NCBI GenBank assembly: GCA_009928955.1
Contig: SABN01000022.1
Span: 1-38,407 of the forward strand
Direction of reading: 5' to 3'
DNA from: Opitutia bacterium
GTDB taxonomy: Bacteria; Verrucomicrobiota; Kiritimatiellia; CAIQIC01; Lenti-01
DNA: 38,407 nucleotides
How positions within the stretch are numbered: position 1 is the stretch's first letter; each line of letters begins with the position of its first letter. The notes beneath the pieces were generated by a model, which searched no databases, was not told where the DNA came from, and saw only the letters and a program-made list of their open reading frames with translations. Shown here in pieces: positions 18,009 to 36,143 of the stretch. The position numbers and the translations under genes are program-made.

Positions 18009-18566
18009 TCAGCGGGTTCCACCCGGTTCGGCTCCGGCATCTACCGTCGCGCCCTTGTCCAAGAGATAGCGGACGACGCGCAACCGGCCCGAGACCGCCG
18101 CTTTCATCAGCGGGGTCTCGCCCGCGCTGTCCCGGGCATTGACCTCCGCGCCCTGCTCCGCGAGATATTGGACGACGCCCAGATCGCTGACCCCCCACAT
18201 CAACGGGGTTTCGCCCCTTCCGCTCCGCGCGTTCACATCCGCACCTTTTTTCACCAGATATTTCACCACGTCCAACTGGCCCAGAAAGGCCGCCTTCATC
18301 AGGGCGGTTTCGCCATTGATGTCCTTGGCGTTCACATCCGCGCCTTTGTCCACCAAGTATTGGACGGCGCTCAAGTCGGTCGTCGCCCACATCAACGGGG
18401 TCCGGCCGTAGGAATCGCGGGCATCCACCTCCACGCCCTTTTGGAGAAACTGCCCGGCCTTGGCCAGATCGCCTCGGCCCACGGCCTTGTGGAGGCCCAG
18501 GCATCCGGTGAGGAGCGGCAACAGCATCCATGAAAGCGCGAACAAAACCGTGCGGCCATTTCTCAT
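18009..18566 (-). CDS. Ankyrin-repeat lipoprotein, copy 2
   Basis: 185 residues. A lipobox LLPLLTGC gives Cys22. The ankyrin repeats that follow are LHKAVGRGDLAKAGQFLQKG, YGRTPLMWATTDLSAVQYLV, INGETALMKAAFLGQLDVVK, RGETPLMWGVSDLGVVQYLA and AGETPLMKAAVSGRLRVVRY. The start at 18566 is preceded by GAGGAG. It differs from copy 1 mainly in the last repeats, as expected after duplication and divergence. It lies upstream of copy 1 in the same direction with a 259-bp gap, so each copy probably has its own transcript start. Confidence 0.85.
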   Translation of the reverse strand: MRNGRTVLFALSWMLLPLLTGCLGLHKAVGRGDLAKAGQFLQKGVEVDARDSYGRTPLMWATTDLSAVQYLVDKGADVNAKDINGETALMKAAFLGQLDVVKYLVKKGADVNARSGRGETPLMWGVSDLGVVQYLAEQGAEVNARDSAGETPLMKAAVSGRLRVVRYLLDKGATVDAGAEPGGTR

Positions 18567-28994: not shown

Positions 28995-29085
28995 GATTTT
29001 TCACCACGGATAGACACGGATACACACGGATTTTCGCTCGAATCCTCTCCCCATCCGTGTCCATCCGTGTTCATCCGTGGTTGTT
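28995..29085. repeat. Dispersed CCGTGT(T)CATCCGTGG repeat
   Basis: Repeated units such as ATCCGTGTCCATCCGTGTT and CCGTGTTCATCCGTGG occur on the plus strand, with the inverse ACCACGGATAGACACGGAT at the left. A related copy is at 36093-36130. Such units are frequent in gaps of PVC-type genomes. The repeat stays in frame with mfd, so it could be mistaken for coding sequence. Confidence 0.75.
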
Positions 29086-29135
29086 CCCGGTTTCGTTGCA
29101 TGATGCATAGGGCGCACCGGCGCAGCATCCAACGT

Positions 29136-29561
29136 CTATGCTTTAGGCGGGGTCAACAGTTTCAAATTCGGGAAATAGGTGCGGTAGCGCCCGATGTCGG
29201 CCGTGGCCAAGGGCACATTGAGCAAATCGGCATGCGCGCCGATGAAAAAATCGGGCAAGGGCGTTGCCGGAGCCGATGGCCCCTTGGTTTTCTTCCGGGT
29301 CGCGCGGAACGCCCGATAGGCCCGAGCGCAGCTTTCCGCGCAGGCGGCCGGCAAATCCACGATTTCGATGCCCCAGGAGCGGATGGTCTGCGCCGCTTCC
29401 TCGGGCCGGGCCTCGCCGACGCAAATCTCGGCCAGCACTACCGGATTGATCAACGCCCCGTCGCCGGCCACGTGCCGGACGATGGTCTCGACCGACCAGC
29501 GATGGAACGGCGAATCCGGATCGGACGCGTAGATCAGGACGTTCGTGTCGAGAAAGATCAC
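29136..29561 (-). CDS. PIN-domain toxin (VapC family)
   Basis: 141 residues. The PIN nuclease acidic residues are present: MIFLDTNVLIY (Asp5), NPVVLAEICVGE (Glu), LPDFFIGAHADLL (Asp) and LATADIGRY (Asp). VapC toxins are Mg-dependent ribonucleases, often against tRNA or rRNA. The start overlaps the antitoxin stop by 4 bp (29558-29561), the usual toxin-antitoxin coupling. Length matches the family (about 130-145). The exact RNA target cannot be read from the sequence. Confidence 0.9.
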   Translation of the reverse strand: MIFLDTNVLIYASDPDSPFHRWSVETIVRHVAGDGALINPVVLAEICVGEARPEEAAQTIRSWGIEIVDLPAACAESCARAYRAFRATRKKTKGPSAPATPLPDFFIGAHADLLNVPLATADIGRYRTYFPNLKLLTPPKA

Positions 29562-29901: not shown

Positions 29902-29919
29902 GCGGCACTCCCGTGCCGC
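29902..29919 (-). repeat. Hairpin with GGGA loop after the VR-like relic
   Basis: GCGGCAC-TCCC-GTGCCGC on the plus strand: a perfect 7-bp stem. On the coding (minus) strand the loop is GGGA, and it begins about 20 nt after the stop of the FGE-like fragment. GC-rich stems with four-base loops just after a variable repeat are a known DGR homing signal. It could also be a generic intergenic hairpin. Confidence 0.6.
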
Positions 29920-29939
29920 GTTGTTGTTTTGGTTTTTCT

Positions 29940-30070
29940 TCATGGCAGGGTCCTGGCGGGGCGAAAGCCCAGGTAGCTGCTCCGAACGTCCGGGGCGGTG
30001 CCGCTGCGACTCGCGGAACGGCAGACCCCCGCGATGCCGCGCCAACCCCCGCCCCGCCCCACGCGGTCCA
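29940..30070 (-). pseudogene. Relic of an FGE-sulfatase C-terminus, VR-like
   Basis: The frame ending at TGA 29940-29942 reads VDRVGRGGGWRGIAGVCRS and then on to YLGFRPARTLP. It aligns residue for residue with the DGR template product (RGGSW...A..CR...R....PD......GFR). Variable positions in the known VR are also different here, but so are some adenine-free positions, so it does not derive directly from the TR at 31106-31237. The upstream part of the FGE domain (GNVWEWC...) is absent and group II intron DNA begins 100 bp away. It is either the remnant of a second DGR target or of an ordinary FGE-fold gene. Confidence 0.6.
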
Positions 30071-30122
30071 CGCCCGAAACCGCCCCTGCTCCGGAGGCCC
30101 AATCGTTTTTGAAACCCCTTCC

Positions 30123-30147
30123 GGCCGGCGTGGAAGCCGGCCCTCCA
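30123..30147 (-). repeat. Co-varying hairpin repeat H1
   Basis: Arm GGCCGGC, loop GTGGAA, arm GCCGGCC, flank CTCCA. It is in reverse orientation relative to H2 (30870-30889), which lies across the intron; without the intron the two would be about 27 bp apart. Confidence 0.8.
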
Positions 30148-30173
30148 CAAATCCGTTCCGCATTCCGCTCTTG

Positions 30174-30866
30174 ATCGGATGGGGGCACGGGGGATTTCAC
30201 CCCGTGCCCCTTCCACACCACCGGACATGCGGTTTTCCGCATCCGGCGGTTGAACTGGGCCTCCACCCTCACGGGCTTCTGCAAAACAATGGCACGGTAC
30301 ACGTATTTCGCTCCTGCCATTCTTTTCATTGAACAGGTCACCCGACTTCTCGCGGCGGGGATTTGGGAAACTACAAGCGGCCTTGCGAATGAATCCACAT
30401 TCGCGCCACCACCTGCCTTCAGGCTTTGCCCGGTCGGGCATGGTCCTTCGGTTTCAGTTCCCTGTAGGTCTTTCCCCACAACGGAGGTCGGTCTGTTTTC
30501 TCCAGTTCTTCGGCCCTTCGCTCCTGCCGCCTTTCGACGGCTCTCTTCACTACTACGGCCTCTGCTGACTCCTCCGCCGCTCTCGCGCCGGAGGTCTCCC
30601 CAGGTAAGGTGCATGAACTTTCGGCCCGCGCCGCCAGGCTCTACCCGATCTGGCTTTCGGTAACGGTTGGATTTCGCGTTCCCTAGCACGCTCATCGCCC
30701 AGATCGAGCCTCGCTGCCTGTTCGTGTTCCTGCGGTCGGACCTTCGCTACGGACTTCTTTCAGCTCGCTCCCTCGCGGGCGCGGCCTTGTCTTTCGCTAC
30801 GGTTGCTGTCACTGCTCTCCGGTCTTCTCCTTTCAGATGACAAGTTCATGCCCATGCTGGGCACAC
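30174..30866 (-). mobile_element. ORF-less group IIC intron
   Basis: Read on the minus strand, it starts GTGTGCCCAGCATGGGC, the classical group II 5' end. It contains GGAGTCAGCAGAGGCCGTAG (30553-30572), a block conserved in group IIC introns such as that of Oceanobacillus iheyensis. A 34-nt domain V (30217-30250) is followed by a strong domain VI-like stem (GGGGCACGGGG/CCCCGTGCCCC), and it ends ...CCGAT. At 693 nt it has no room for a reverse transcriptase, and none is present. The 5' exon is a hairpin (H2), as usual for class C. GAGGG at 30770-30774 can pair as EBS1 with the last exon bases CCCTC. Removing 30174-30866 restores TGGAGGGACGGG, the hairpin-repeat consensus, which fixes both ends. 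Confidence 0.85.
30217..30250 (-). ncRNA. Group II intron domain V
   Basis: This 34-nt hairpin has a 9-bp lower stem (ACCGCCGGA/TCCGGTGGT, one G-T pair), a 2-nt bulge on the 3' side, a 5-bp upper stem (TGCGG/CCGCA) and an AAAA loop. The CGC catalytic triad follows the first base of the core, as in group IIC. Confidence 0.82.
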
Positions 30867-30869
30867 GAG

Positions 30870-30889
30870 GGACGGGTTCCACCCCGTCC
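30870..30889 (+). repeat. Co-varying hairpin repeat H2 (5' exon of the intron)
   Basis: Arm GGACGGG, loop TTCCAC, arm CCCGTCC. The TGGAGGG flank seen in other copies is split by the intron: GAGGG is at 30867-30871 and the missing TG is at 30172-30173. Confidence 0.82.
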
Positions 30890-31105
30890 GAATTTCCGAT
30901 CCCCATCTCCGCCCACCTCGCATGGATTCCACTTCCAGCCCATTCCGCCCTGTCCACGTGCAGTGAAACAAGCCCCGCCGGAGCCTTCGCCGGACCATCC
31001 AGTCCGTCTACCAACCCCGGCGGGGCGTTGCCTTTTCGTCCCGCTTGGAGGCGGGAACGGGATTTCATCCGGGTCGGCAAGCCGCCCTCCGGCAGACTTG
31101 GCGAG

Positions 31106-31237
31106 CTGGGGGCAGGACAGCCCGGAAGCCGTTGTTGTTGTTGGCGTTGTCCGGGTTGTCGTTGTTGCGGTTGCCCACCCGGCAGTTGTTGGCGTTGTTG
31201 TTCCAACTGCCGCCGCGATCCACGCGGTTGGAGCCCT
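31106..31237 (-). repeat. DGR template repeat (TR)
   Basis: 132 nt, read on the minus strand, 54 nt after the reverse transcriptase stop. It aligns without gaps to the VR at 33135-33266. All of the roughly 25 mismatches fall on adenines of this strand. In the target frame it would read RGGSWNNNANNCRVGNR and onward, with AAC codons at nearly every variable site, the codon type favoured in DGR templates because A-changes there never make a stop. It has no start codon of its own and serves as RNA template. Its 3' end shares CTTCCGGGCTGTCCTGCCCC with the VR. Confidence 0.97.
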
Positions 31238-31290: not shown

Positions 31291-32295
31291 TCAAGATGCG
31301 CGGCTGGTCTGCGCCACGACTTGACGCCGGAAGCCGGCCGAATCCGCAAAGCGGACGTACGAAAGCAGCGCCTCCGCATGCCGGGCCAGATCGGATTCCG
31401 ACCAACGGCCGGTTTCGAATTCCTGCTCGAACCCCGCCAAACGCCGACCAAACCGGCGGCGGGCACGTGGCCCCAAATCAAGCCTGTGCGCAAATATCCG
31501 GTATCCCAGAAAGGGCAACCCCCGCGCACTGCGGTTGAGCTGGACGTCGTCCTTGAGCCGGAGTTGAAGACGGGACTCCAAAAAGGCCGTAATTGCCGAC
31601 AAATGACCTTTCAACGAATGCTTGTCGGATGCCCAGAGGACGAAATCGTCCATGTACCGGACATACCCCGCCACCCGCAGCGTCTCCTTGACGAAATGGT
31701 CGAGATGCCCCAGATAGAAATTCGCCAGATGCTGGGAGATCAGGTTGCCGATGGGCAGCCCTTTGCCGGGGGCCATCTCGTAGCTTGAGAGAATCCGGCC
31801 AAGGAGCGCCAGCAAATCGGCATCCTTGAACCGGCGGGCCAGAAGGTCAAGCACCGTGGCATGGCCGATCGAATCGAAGTATTTGCGGATATCCAGCTTG
31901 AGATACCAAGGATGGCGGCGCGCGAAGGATTGCGCCCGCAAGACAGCCTCGTGCAGGCCCTTGCCCTTGCGGCAGGCATACGAATCGTGGATGGCAAACC
32001 GCTCCAACGCCGGCTCGCATACGTTCATGACGGCATGGTGCAGCACGCGCTCCGGAAACGCCGCCGCGCAAATCGTCCGTTCCTTGGGGTCGTGCACGGT
32101 AAAGAAGTGGTAGCGTCCCACGTTTACGGCGCGGGCACAAAGCTGATCGCGCAGCCGGCGCAAGTTCTCGTCCAGCCGGACCGCGTATTCGATCACTTCC
32201 TTCTTCCCGCGTTTCCCTCGGGCCGCTTTCAGATAGGCCAGCCGCAGGTTTTCGGGCTCGGCGATCCGGTCGTAGAGACCACCCGCCCGTTTCAT
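31291..32295 (-). CDS. DGR reverse transcriptase
   Basis: 334 residues, the usual length for DGR enzymes. Motif order: YHFFTVHDPKERTICAAAFP (RT2), WYLKLDIRKYFDSIGH (RT3, first catalytic Asp), GLPIGNLISQHLANFYL (RT4, with the DGR-specific 'SQ' in place of the group II 'PQG'), YVRYMDDFVLW (RT5, YMDD catalytic pair at 214-217) and LPFLGYRIF (RT7). No maturase or endonuclease domain is present. It copies the TR RNA with errors at adenines and the cDNA replaces the VR. The start overlaps the HRDC gene stop (ATGA, 32292-32295), so both are co-translated. Confidence 0.96.
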   Translation of the reverse strand: MKRAGGLYDRIAEPENLRLAYLKAARGKRGKKEVIEYAVRLDENLRRLRDQLCARAVNVGRYHFFTVHDPKERTICAAAFPERVLHHAVMNVCEPALERFAIHDSYACRKGKGLHEAVLRAQSFARRHPWYLKLDIRKYFDSIGHATVLDLLARRFKDADLLALLGRILSSYEMAPGKGLPIGNLISQHLANFYLGHLDHFVKETLRVAGYVRYMDDFVLWASDKHSLKGHLSAITAFLESRLQLRLKDDVQLNRSARGLPFLGYRIFAHRLDLGPRARRRFGRRLAGFEQEFETGRWSESDLARHAEALLSYVRFADSAGFRRQVVAQTSRAS

Positions 32296-32849
32296 TTTTC
32301 CGCCCGGTTTTCCGGAACGGCCGACGCGGAGGTCGGCCCTCCATTCCCGCCCTCTGGAGGGACGGGTTCCACCCCGTCCGGCTGTGGGGTTCCGGTCAAC
32401 GCCACGACCGCCAGCACCGCCGCGCCGTATTTGCCGGCCTTGGCGTCGCCGAGGCCTTCGATCTCCTTCAGGCCCGCCAGGCTCTCCGGGCGCTTCGCGG
32501 CGATGCCCGCCAACTGCTCGTTCGTCAGCACCGCATAGACTGGTATGCCCTCTTGTTCGGCCGTTGCCTTGCGCCAATCGCGCAGGCGGGCGAACAAGGC
32601 GAAATCCCCGGGCGAGAGCACCTCCTTGTAGTCCACGCGCGGCTTGCCGCCGCGCCCCTCGCCCGGACCCGGACCGGACGGAGCCGGTCCCTCCAGAAAT
32701 TCCACTGCCAGCGCCCAGTACGAGTTCTCCCCGTTCGCCACGAATTCCCGGTGCGCCGTCAGCACCCGGTGCGACCGCAGAAAACGGTTCAGATCCTCCT
32801 GCAGGCCCGCGTCGCCGCGGGCGGGTATGGCGTAAAAGCTCAGTTGCAT
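32292..32849 (-). CDS. HRDC-domain DGR accessory protein
   Basis: 185 residues. The N-terminal 60 residues (MQLSFYAIPARGDAGLQEDL, then HREFVANGENSYWALAVEFL) are found in similar DGR-linked proteins. An HRDC nucleic-acid-binding domain spans about 85-155 (FALFARLRDWRKATAEQEGI, then AKRPESLAGLKEIEGLGDAK). HRDC proteins are known partners in DGR cassettes where the Avd protein is missing, and no avd-like gene is visible here. The last 30 residues (PQPDGVEPVPPEGGNGG...) are encoded by an inserted pair of hairpin repeats (32319-32379), so the native C-terminus has probably been replaced. The start at 32849 is chosen by domain fit. Confidence 0.85.
   Translation of the reverse strand: MQLSFYAIPARGDAGLQEDLNRFLRSHRVLTAHREFVANGENSYWALAVEFLEGPAPSGPGPGEGRGGKPRVDYKEVLSPGDFALFARLRDWRKATAEQEGIPVYAVLTNEQLAGIAAKRPESLAGLKEIEGLGDAKAGKYGAAVLAVVALTGTPQPDGVEPVPPEGGNGGPTSASAVPENRAEK
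32319..32379. repeat. Co-varying hairpin pair H3/H4
   Basis: H3: GGCCGAC-GCGGAG-GTCGGCC then CTCCA (32319-32343). H4: TGGAGGG flank and GGACGGG-TTCCAC-CCCGTCC (32355-32379). The facing CCCTCCA and TGGAGGG flanks are themselves complementary. The pair lies within the 3' end of the HRDC reading frame. Confidence 0.85.
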
Positions 32850-32877
32850 GGGCCGCTTGCAAAACGAAGGCCAAAAT

Positions 32878-32958
32878 GGTCGGGGTGGAACCCGCCCCTC
32901 CATAAAACCGCCCAAACGGCCTGTTTTCGCCTCTGGAGGGACGACTTCCACGTCGTCC
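32878..32958. repeat. Co-varying hairpin pair H5/H6
   Basis: H5: GGTCGGG-GTGGAA-CCCGCCC then CTCCA (32878-32902, one mismatch in the stem). H6: TGGAGGG flank and GGACGAC-TTCCAC-GTCGTCC (32934-32958). H6 differs from H2, H4 and H7 in both stem arms at once, so pairing is kept. The pair lies between the target gene and the HRDC gene. Confidence 0.85.
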
Positions 32959-33052
32959 GGGGCCGTTTTGCAAGAGGCTTGCATGTTTCACCATTTGCCG
33001 GGTGCAAGCCCCCGGACCCCCGGATTGAAAATTCCCATTTTCTTGCCTCGTC

Positions 33053-33123: not shown

Positions 33124-35913
33124 TCACGGCCGACCTGGGGGCAGGACAGCCCGGAAGCCGCGGAAGTAGTAGGCGTAGTCCGGGGAGCCGGAGCCGCGGG
33201 AGCCCACCCGGCAGCGGTAGGCGTAGTAGTGCCAACTGCCGCCGCGAGCCACGCGGGAGGAGCCCTCATATCCCGGGTACCAATCGAAACACCACTCCCA
33301 CACGTTGCCCGCCATGTCGTGCAGCCCATAGCCATTCGCCGCAAACGAACCCACGGGCGAGGTGTAAGGATATATTCCATCGTTGTATGTCGGGTGATAG
33401 CCCCGCGTCGGGCTCGTGTCGTAGTCGTATGAACTGGAACTGTAGTAATTCGCCCGCGCATGCTGGATCGTGTCTGAATCGCTCCACGGGAAACGGCGGC
33501 CGGTGGCGCCGCCTCGAGCCGCGTATTCCCACTCCACGTCCGTTGGCAATCGGTACCCGGCGGCGGAGGTCTGGACGACGTCGTTGCTCTGTCCGCCCTT
33601 GTACACGGCCCCGTTGACCGTATAGACCGGTTGCCGCCCCTCCTTCTGGCTGCGGGCGTTGCACCACTTCGCCACGTCCCACCAGTTCACCGTGTGCACC
33701 GGGTGGTTCGCCGCCTTGCCGCTCCCCGCGTTATCAAAGCTGTAGCCGTTGGCAATGGCCCACGTGTACACCTCGTCCCACAGCGCCTTCGTCACCTCGT
33801 ACTTGTCCATGTAAAACGAGTTCACGGTCAGGCTGTACGCCCCATAGTCCGGGTCCGTCCCCGCATTCGTCCCGCCGGGGATCAGGACCATGCCGGCGGG
33901 CGGGGCGGAGGTTGAGCCGCCGCCGGTGACCGTGACCGTGCAGGAGGTCTGCACGCTGCCGACATCGTTGTAAGCCCTGACCGCATAGGTCCCGGCATGG
34001 CCGGCACTGGCCTGCCGGATGGCATATTCGGGCTGGGTGGCGCCGACAATGCGCGTACCGTTGAAATACCACCGATATTGAGGATCCGGAATGCCCGAGG
34101 CCCAACCGGATAGGGTCACGGAGCCGCCAATTGGCACGGTGCGGTTGGGGAAAGTGCCCGAAAAAACGGGAGCGGAGGAGGGGTCCGGATAGTTGGTGCT
34201 CCACAGCGGCCAGCGCTCGTCGTATAGGGTCCATTCGGGCTTTTCTCCCCAGTTGTCGCCCCATACCCGGCTCTCGATGCCCAAGGTGGAGGACAGGCCG
34301 AAATAGAGCGCCCAGTCGTATTGGAGGGGGTTCAACTGGAACGAGCCTTCCAGTTCGGTGTAGGGCACCACGTCGGCCCACAGGCCGGCCAGGCTGTAGG
34401 CCAGCACCGTCAGCTTGGGCTGCACGTAGACCTTGGCGTGGGCGTTCCCTTCCAGTTGCCACGTGATGGGTTCGGCCTCCAGCACGATGTCCGGATTCCG
34501 AAAGCCGTGGGTCCATTGGTTCTGCCGCAACTGCACGGTGAACTCCAGCTCCTTGCCCATGTCCACCACGGTGTGGGCGTTGCCGGCCACGCTGGCGTCG
34601 TATTCATAGCCCGCGTGGAGTTCCACGACGACTTCGATCCAGACCGGCACCGGCCCGATCATCCCGCCGAACACCTTGCTGATGGGCTGGATCAGGGGAA
34701 ATTCGTCGCCACCCTCGACGGCGGCATAGAAAAGCGCCTCGGGCTTGATGTGGATGGTCAATTCGCTGCGGGCGGAGGCGTCGAAGGATTCCAGCCCACC
34801 CCAGCCGATGGCCGCCGCCACGTCTACGTCGGCCGTCAGCAGCCAGCTGCACTCCGGCAGCCACAGCTTCAGGTTGGGATGCTCATAGAGGATGGTTCCG
34901 CCCAGGTCGTCGCCGAATTCGGCGTGCAGCAGGTTGGCCTCCACGCCCACGCCGCGCACCGACAGCCCTGGATCGGCCGGCTGGAAATCCACGGCGGCAA
35001 AAGACCCGGCCGTCAGCAGATTGGTCAGCGAGATGTCCTCCGTCCAGGCCGTGATGCGCAGCAATCCGGCATCCACCGCGTTCGAGACGACTGCGCGATA
35101 GAAGGGATAGGCGGCATCGAAACTAACCAGCCGGGTCCCGTTGCTGATCGCGGGCGGCGCGCCTTCGTAGGAAAACACCACCGCGTTGGAGGTCACGTCC
35201 ACGATCTGCAGGGCGGGCGAACCATCCTTGGGCTTCACGTTGGGCAGCGTGCGCAGGCGTCCGCTGGCTGTCCGCTTGCTGCCGGCAGGGGCCGTCAGGG
35301 CCAGGAACTCGCCTGCCGTTTCCGGGGTGCGTTCCAGCTCGAACGTCCACGTGTAGTTGCTTAAGGCATGTCCCAGGGTGTCGGCGATGGCCAGGGAGTT
35401 GCTGATCGTGGCGCCCGGCGCTCCCAGCGCCGCCGGCGGCGTGAAGATTACGGTGTTGTTTGTCCAGGCGAGATACGGACTGGCATGTCCCATGTTGGTC
35501 CAGCCTGCAATGGAAAGCGTCAACGACTGGGTGTCGATGCCTGCGGCATCCTCCAACGTGATATAGACCGCAGCATTCGTCGCCACCGCGACGGCATTGG
35601 AGGCCGGCACCAGCGCCGAGACTTCGGGCGGTTCCAAGTCCGGCCGGGCGATGCGGTAGAATTGCTTGCCCGCACCGGTCGTCACCGTGTTGGAGGCCAG
35701 CACGTTGGAGAACGATACCCCGGCCGGCGTGAGATTCGTCCAACTGGGCGTCACCAGATCGGGCGTGGCCATGACCTGATAGGTTTTCTCCGGCACCGCC
35801 TCCCAGTCCAGCCGGACCGAACCGGGCCCGGCCGGTTCGATTTCCACCGCCCCGCCCCATGCTCCAGCCGCAAGCCCCAGAACCAATCCCGCCAAGCCCA
35901 ATGTTTTGATCAC
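33124..35913 (-). CDS. DGR target: secreted protein with Ig-like and FGE-sulfatase domains
   Basis: 929 residues from a GTG start with GGAGAA six nt upstream. An N-terminal signal peptide (IKTLGLAGLVLGLAAGAWG) is followed by a 'VPEKTYQVMATPDL' strand module, a large beta-rich region (about 90-600), and an Ig-like domain at about 605-685 (YRWYFNGTRIVGATQPEYAI, then AGTYAVRAYNDVGS). The C-terminal FGE-sulfatase (C-type-lectin-fold) domain runs from about 690 (MVLIPGGTNAG, YEVTKALWDEV, YRLPTDVEWEYAARGG, MAGNVWEWCFDWYPGY). The VR encodes residues about 883-927, on the ligand-binding face of this fold. It is probably an exported, surface-exposed binding protein whose tip is diversified. TTGCCA (35974-35979) and CATAAA (35950-35955) may form its promoter. 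Confidence 0.95.
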   Translation of the reverse strand: MIKTLGLAGLVLGLAAGAWGGAVEIEPAGPGSVRLDWEAVPEKTYQVMATPDLVTPSWTNLTPAGVSFSNVLASNTVTTGAGKQFYRIARPDLEPPEVSALVPASNAVAVATNAAVYITLEDAAGIDTQSLTLSIAGWTNMGHASPYLAWTNNTVIFTPPAALGAPGATISNSLAIADTLGHALSNYTWTFELERTPETAGEFLALTAPAGSKRTASGRLRTLPNVKPKDGSPALQIVDVTSNAVVFSYEGAPPAISNGTRLVSFDAAYPFYRAVVSNAVDAGLLRITAWTEDISLTNLLTAGSFAAVDFQPADPGLSVRGVGVEANLLHAEFGDDLGGTILYEHPNLKLWLPECSWLLTADVDVAAAIGWGGLESFDASARSELTIHIKPEALFYAAVEGGDEFPLIQPISKVFGGMIGPVPVWIEVVVELHAGYEYDASVAGNAHTVVDMGKELEFTVQLRQNQWTHGFRNPDIVLEAEPITWQLEGNAHAKVYVQPKLTVLAYSLAGLWADVVPYTELEGSFQLNPLQYDWALYFGLSSTLGIESRVWGDNWGEKPEWTLYDERWPLWSTNYPDPSSAPVFSGTFPNRTVPIGGSVTLSGWASGIPDPQYRWYFNGTRIVGATQPEYAIRQASAGHAGTYAVRAYNDVGSVQTSCTVTVTGGGSTSAPPAGMVLIPGGTNAGTDPDYGAYSLTVNSFYMDKYEVTKALWDEVYTWAIANGYSFDNAGSGKAANHPVHTVNWWDVAKWCNARSQKEGRQPVYTVNGAVYKGGQSNDVVQTSAAGYRLPTDVEWEYAARGGATGRRFPWSDSDTIQHARANYYSSSSYDYDTSPTRGYHPTYNDGIYPYTSPVGSFAANGYGLHDMAGNVWEWCFDWYPGYEGSSRVARGGSWHYYAYRCRVGSRGSGSPDYAYYFRGFRAVLPPGRP
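33135..33266 (-). repeat. DGR variable repeat (VR)
   Basis: 132 nt at the 3' end of the target gene. Compared with the TR, about 25 bases differ, and all are adenines of the TR coding strand changed to T, C or G. Bases that are not adenine in the TR are unchanged. Typical codon changes are AAC to TAC, TCC, GGC, CGC, TTC or CAC. The shared region ends on one side at GAGCCCT (plus strand) and on the other at CTGGGGGCAGG, eleven bases before the stop. Confidence 0.97.
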
Positions 35914-36002: not shown

Positions 36003-36072
36003 TGGAGGGACGGGTTCCACCCCGTCCGGATTTCCGGTCCCGATCCCGGCCCGCGTGGAAGCGGGCCCTCCA
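36003..36072. repeat. Co-varying hairpin pair H7/H8
   Basis: H7: TGGAGGG flank and GGACGGG-TTCCAC-CCCGTCC (36003-36027). H8: GGCCCGC-GTGGAA-GCGGGCC then CTCCA (36048-36072). This pair has the outward orientation, opposite to H3/H4 and H5/H6. It lies about 100 bp upstream of the DGR target gene. Confidence 0.85.
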
Positions 36073-36092
36073 GAAGTCGATTCCTCATCCCC

Positions 36093-36130
36093 CCCACTAT
36101 CCGTATCCATCCGTGTTCATCCGTGGTTTT
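36093..36130. repeat. Second copy of the ATCCGTGTTCATCCGTGG repeat
   Basis: TATCCGTATCCATCCGTG then TTCATCCGTGG match the block at 28995-29085. It lies in the gap just after the deacylase stop. Confidence 0.75.
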
Positions 36131-36143
36131 TCCAGGCTCCGTT

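Follow-up and report, generated by a model that had tools for sequence, protein, structure and literature searches.

An orphan DGR variable repeat, very probably left by a second retroelement, beside a complete DGR in an Opitutia bacterium

Results

Layout of the insertion between mfd and the amidohydrolase gene

The window, i.e., the whole analyzed stretch of 38,407 nucleotides from an Opitutia bacterium (contig SABN01000022.1, C294 in our numbering), encodes Mfd, a PIN-domain protein (29136 to 29561, minus strand), an antitoxin-like ORF, an insertion, and an amidohydrolase in the same order as congener G003, in which the PIN gene occupies the same place. The names amidohydrolase and mfd, like that of a nucleotidyltransferase mentioned below, are ones that we assigned from reading the sequences. 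Direct repeats of 54 nt flank the insertion, one on the mfd side (29044 to 29097, plus strand) and another, 83% identical to it, on the amidohydrolase side (36090 to 36143, plus strand).

A complete DGR lies in this insertion on the minus strand and comprises a target gene with Ig-like and FGE domains that bears a variable repeat (VR1) at its end (33124 to 35913), an HRDC-domain accessory protein (about 32292 to 32850; PF00570, E = 7e-21), a DGR-type reverse transcriptase (RT) of the RVT_1 family (about 31291 to 32295), and the template TR1 (31119 to 31235). VR1 and TR1 are a textbook pair that differs at 22 of 31 adenines and at none of the 59 other bases. The same genome carries another complete DGR on contig C108 (locus L051, 780 to 5005) with FGE target, HRDC accessory, RT, and TR in an identical order, and its VR and TR differ at 15/26 adenines and 0/64 other bases.

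Behind the local TR, the minus strand continues with a group II intron, a palindromic repeat, the block that is the subject of this study, and a hairpin. The ORF-less intron (30179 to 30866, minus strand, ends placed by eye) scores well for Rfam domains (stretches 30782 to 30609, 30608 to 30513, and 30251 to 30174) and stands directly behind a GGACGGG-CCCGTCC hairpin. No intron-encoded protein for it was found in its own assembly, in which both RTs are DGR RTs, and the idea that it is a repeated element of this genome was rejected because there is no other copy and only short repeats match. Congener G006 (C186) carries an intron that falls into the same Rfam classes and includes an RT frame. 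Copies that match the palindromic repeat GGAGGGCCGGCTTCCACGCCGGCC (30121 to 30154, minus strand), which immediately precedes the block, are found at 36039 to 36078 and in G003. Short palindromic repeats of the GAGGGACGGGTTCCACCCCGTCC type and its variants are scattered across the insertion and next to module borders (30867 to 30914, 32357 to 32404, 32930 to 32960, and 36005 to 36052) and are also found in relatives (e.g., at locus L134).

An FGE-type tail with the features of a variable repeat

The block (29940 to 30077, minus strand) reads as the orphaned 3' end, including the VR, of a DGR target of the FGE type, with the last 45 codons and a TGA stop (29942 to 29940) that translate from 30077 to 29940 as SGVDRVGRGGGWRGIAGVCRSASRSGTAPDVRSSYLGFRPARTLP*. 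A preliminary description of this DNA had stated that the frame follows the pattern of the protein encoded by the local TR and also departs from that TR at sites other than adenines, and both statements hold: the local TR product is RGGSWNNNANNCRVGNRNNDNPDNANNNNGFR, and the block differs from this TR at 17/59 non-adenine positions in addition to 24/31 adenines. We therefore rejected the local TR as the template of the block, and likewise the C108 TR with its 12/64 non-adenine differences.

The relation to a TR of congener G003 (see below) is of another kind, because over the 87 nt of the VR core (29965 to 30051, minus strand) the block departs from the TR at 19 of 27 adenines but at only 1 of 60 other bases, i.e., the near-identity except at adenines by which a VR is recognized. 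The end of the block differs from the end of this TR (GCCAGGACCCTGCC and GTCAGCACCATGCC, respectively) as an IMH differs from an IMH*, and its IMH-like VR end GGACCCTGCC (29944 to 29953, minus strand) is complementary without mismatch to GGCAGGGTCC, a stretch of the spacer that follows the G003 TR.

The block does not include an intact ligand-binding domain (FGE or CLec) that would carry the VR. FGE fragments upstream of it, which the preliminary description had proposed to look for, were not matched in the contig, where the sole FGE match belongs to the local DGR target (33145 to 33897). Identity of the tail to non-DGR FGE proteins of relatives, which had been named as the observation that would speak against a VR, was not seen either, with the best protein match of the block being 62% identical (193 related genomes, own genome apart); ordinary FGE tails of its own genome are 56% (C160) and 58% (C194) similar to it in protein. 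At the level of sequence, these comparisons confirm the block as a variable repeat of a DGR rather than an ordinary FGE tail.

A DGR-type hairpin follows the stop codon

As the preliminary description had noticed, with reference to studied DGRs, a hairpin with a 7-bp stem and a GGGA loop (GCGGCAC-GGGA-GTGCCGC; 29919 to 29902, minus strand) follows 20 nt past the stop. In the accessible part of PMC3240598, DGR target hairpins are described as GC-rich stems of 7 to 10 bp with 4-nt GRNA loops that lie 4 to 34 bp behind the VR, and the block hairpin fits this description. Its stem-N4-stem pattern occurs a single time in the 3.42-Mb assembly, which led us to reject the idea that it belongs to a genome-wide repeat; with 1 mismatch allowed, the inner 14 nt have one more match in this genome (C280). 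In 135,512 strand-nt of sequence from this genome, the block hairpin is the only perfect stem of at least 7 bp with a 4-nt GRNA loop, so that the count expected in 45 nt is about 0.0003. Chance is a poor explanation of the block frame or of the hairpin.

A matching template in a congener

Using an adenine-permissive pattern with up to 3 mismatches over 84 nt, we found neither a TR for the block nor a second copy of it in its own assembly, which is 90% complete and consists of 345 contigs. Since its cognate TR was not found there, we call the block a putative orphan VR and not an active one. We then imputed a template from the block and searched with its DNA in the 345 genomes of the class, 64 of which gave matches, with the best match at 18482 to 18592 of contig C66 of congener G003 (JAAZBB010000079.1, Lentisphaerae bacterium isolate AS06rmzACSIP_509). 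This stretch is a TR that fits the block by the adenine rule, and a pattern in which the TR adenines were set free matched only the block and this TR among 193 related genomes. The second TR that the preliminary description had suggested seeking in the genome of the block thus turned up in a congener. Both of its explanations, an older target with a lost template or the recipient of a different TR, were right in substance and are supported, the latter by the fit of the G003 TR and the former by the finding that the own assembly yielded neither a TR nor a second copy at up to 3 mismatches and that no FGE domain precedes the tail.

In a 90-nt frame, block and G003 TR show 2/63 non-adenine differences, as compared to 0/59, 0/64, and 2/61 in three VR-TR pairs on single contigs and to 15/63 and 10/63 in the tails of two ordinary FGE genes from this genome. 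A stricter 96-nt frame from RGG to GFR, in which 52 FGE-like tails were compared to 38 TRs, gives 0 to 2 such differences for 22 tails, 5 for the block and one other, and 6 to 40 for the remaining 28. Of the five in the block, two lie at the 5' edge where a repeat cuts the G003 TR and two lie beyond GGGCTT (alignment read by eye). The divergence of 1/60 outside adenines is well below the 16% by which the mfd genes differ (P = 3e-4), so the block does not show the decay of old junk DNA; either it was separated from its TR recently or this TR is still present but unassembled. A viral origin was rejected after the 30-nt degenerate VR/TR pattern gave no exact match in viral_contigs.

Elsewhere in the class, the TRs of loci L061 (G108) and L062 (G158) are nearly identical across different families, which suggests a recent transfer of this DGR type between families.

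Complementarity of VR ends to TR spacers in FGE-type DGRs of the class

The 10-nt complement between the VR end of the block (GGACCCTGCC) and the G003 spacer compares to 4 nt with the spacer of the local TR and 7 nt with that of C108. The TRs of L091 and L132, which share the spacer type of G003, also reach 10 nt, so that the complementarity supports this type of TR and not G003 alone. A scan of DGR loci of the class yielded 40 TRs, 23 of them with a VR on the same piece as FGE-type test pairs. When the target flank past the VR is compared to the TR spacer, the longest perfect complement has a median of 10 nt (range 4 to 18) in the 23 cognate pairs versus about 5 nt (maximum 10) in 506 swapped pairs (Mann-Whitney p = 8e-13), and the cognate spacer outscores all 22 others in 14/23 pairs. 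By comparison, the own end of a TR complements its own spacer over only 4 to 7 nt. VR ends covary with spacers across DGRs (e.g., GGACCCTGCC, GGACCTTGCC, and GAACCCTGTC, each with a matching spacer), and VRs on other contigs retain the address of their TR over 7 nt (C240 and C159 of G153) or 10 nt (C77 of G175). Several VRs on other contigs than the TR (L187, L192, and L186 in G153; L162 and L196 in G175) fit a single TR by the adenine rule and have the same spacer-complementary end; G153 contains 19 FGE-tail matches and several TRs.

The signal has its exceptions, given that three of the 23 pairs reach 6 nt or less (no complementarity for L147 and L154, 6 nt for L149) and that a duplex-energy version is weaker than the exact-match test, with the cognate spacer first in 9/23 pairs. 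Among phages, for which 16 loci were examined and LBR48 gave no pair, cognate complements are not significantly longer than swapped ones (p = 0.07; 17 VR-TR pairs from 15 phages), and complementarity as a general rule of DGRs is therefore not supported. In phage BPP-1 (L168), the VR end TGACCACCT complements over 9 nt the spacer stretch AGGTGGTCA, which presumably lies near the priming adenine; the TR end is not complementary, and about 5% of shuffled spacers reach 9 nt. Spacer complementarity thus appears to be a feature of the FGE-type group in this class, with a putative function.

The same site in congeners

In G003, the TR stands alone between the amidohydrolase gene and a small nucleotidyltransferase-like gene, followed by the antitoxin-like ORF, the PIN gene, and mfd. 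No DGR-type RT was found in this genome, where the sole RVT_1 match is partial, lies on another contig, and looks group II-like by eye. The site is empty in four other congeners (G001, G002, G004, and G005), in which the amidohydrolase gene directly adjoins mfd; G006 was left out of the comparison because its contig ends inside the amidohydrolase gene. The empty site of G001 keeps a single copy of the flanking direct repeat, reminiscent of either an excision scar or a target site. In an mfd DNA tree, G003 is the outermost congener and G005, with its empty site, is the sister of the genome with the block, so shared ancestry of the two filled sites would require several losses; alternatively, there may have been horizontal transfer.

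Discussion

We consider it very likely that a second, different DGR was once located, at least in part, at this site and that the block is the remaining 3' end of its target gene. What speaks for this reading is the nearly adenine-only relation to the G003 TR together with the VR-type end and the GRNA hairpin, as well as the lack of a partner TR in the own assembly and of a preceding FGE domain, while the partner TR of G003 stands alone in the syntenic gap. A DGR of the G003-TR kind with an HRDC-type RT would have copied its TR into adenine-mutated cDNA, and this cDNA would have replaced the VR of an FGE-domain target, so that the block would owe its diversity to mutagenic homing. Later loss of the target body and the machinery may have left VR, VR end, and hairpin in the present genome and a truncated TR in G003, with the group II intron and palindromic repeats now apparently marking the break. 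The same gap is occupied by the complete local DGR. As neither the core of the local TR nor its spacer fits, this DGR should not act on the block, which probably is no longer diversified. Some observations weigh against our preferred reading, namely the five non-adenine differences in the 96-nt frame where other pairs have 0 to 2, an mfd tree that calls for losses or transfer, and a block that is less diverged (1/60) than mfd (16%).

Several of the same observations bear on other explanations. The pristine VR end and hairpin and the low non-adenine divergence would also be expected of a live remote target whose partner TR sits in the unassembled part of the genome (the assembly being 90% complete in 345 contigs) and on which one of the two RTs acts in trans, and relatives do have VRs on contigs other than that of their TR (C240 and C159 with the C73 TR in G153, C77 with the C31 TR in G175). 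We nevertheless regard this as quite unlikely, given that the own assembly yielded no TR and that diversification of a block with neither FGE domain nor gene start before it would give no usable protein. It is highly improbable that the block is a fragment of an ordinary FGE gene without any DGR history that resembles the TR through shared FGE ancestry. The proteins encoded by ordinary FGE tails of the genome do resemble that of the block (56% for C160, 58% for C194), and these tails also show some adenine bias relative to TRs, because the asparagine sites of TRs are variable sites of FGE proteins, but they differ from TRs at 10 to 15 of 63 non-adenine positions against 1/60 in the block, and this explanation does not account for the DGR-type hairpin or the spacer complementarity.

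A more serious alternative, though one that we find doubtful, is that VR and G003 TR arrived independently, each through a horizontal transfer of a mobile DGR lineage, and never formed one element at this site. The very similar TRs in other families (G108 and G158), the losses otherwise required by the tree, and the repeats that flank the gap are in line with such transfers; against them stands that both genomes share the gap, the flanking PIN and antitoxin genes, and the palindromic repeat adjoining the amidohydrolase gene. If our preferred reading of a second DGR lost from this site is correct, the two genomes preserve a split fossil: one species retains the recipient half of a DGR and the other the donor half, both within the same gap flanked by two conserved genes. 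With this gap filled in two genomes and empty in four congeners, the site would be a record of DGR gain and loss, i.e., of DGR turnover at one place.

The complementarity between TR spacer and target bears on target finding by DGR cDNA, the mechanism of which the accessible text of PMC12875486 describes as unresolved. As a tentative idea that may or may not hold, the spacer of FGE-type DGRs in this class could be antisense to the VR end and 3' flank of the target, with a full match to the IMH and a mismatch to the IMH*, and thus serve as a base-paired address in an RNA-cDNA guide. Spacer and cDNA would both pair with one and the same strand, in the manner of an Okazaki-like RNA-cDNA guide. Such an address would explain why the VR rather than the TR is the recipient, and the orphan block would still bear the address of its lost TR. 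The accessible parts of PMC3240598, PMC12875486, PMC4891356, PMC10907252, and PMC8144416 contain no description of spacer-IMH complementarity that we could find, and our literature search found none; subscription papers on DGR RNA lay outside its scope, and we make no claim of priority.

Regarding known systems, the block resembles Bordetella phage BPP-1 in that a VR is followed by a GC-rich hairpin with a 4-nt GRNA loop, but that Avd-type phage system, as far as the accessible part of PMC3240598 describes it, contrasts with a block that has an FGE target, an HRDC-type accessory, and no intact gene. The closest parallel is Treponema denticola SP32, where, according to the accessible part of PMC4891356, the VR of a remote target fits the TR of another strain type, with 19 of 21 differences at adenines, and was read by the authors as the leftover of a lost DGR; our literature search found no further precedent of an orphan VR. 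In both cases, the VR fits a foreign TR rather than the resident one. According to the accessible text of PMC4891356, the Treponema VR belongs to an annotated target gene at a distance from the core DGR, whereas only VR end and hairpin are left of the block, which in addition shares its gap with a different complete DGR and has a partner TR that stands as an orphan in this gap in a different species. Leftover targets of replaced DGRs are already known from Treponema denticola, to the extent covered by the accessible text of PMC4891356, and the block would be a more eroded case of which the donor half is found at the same site elsewhere.
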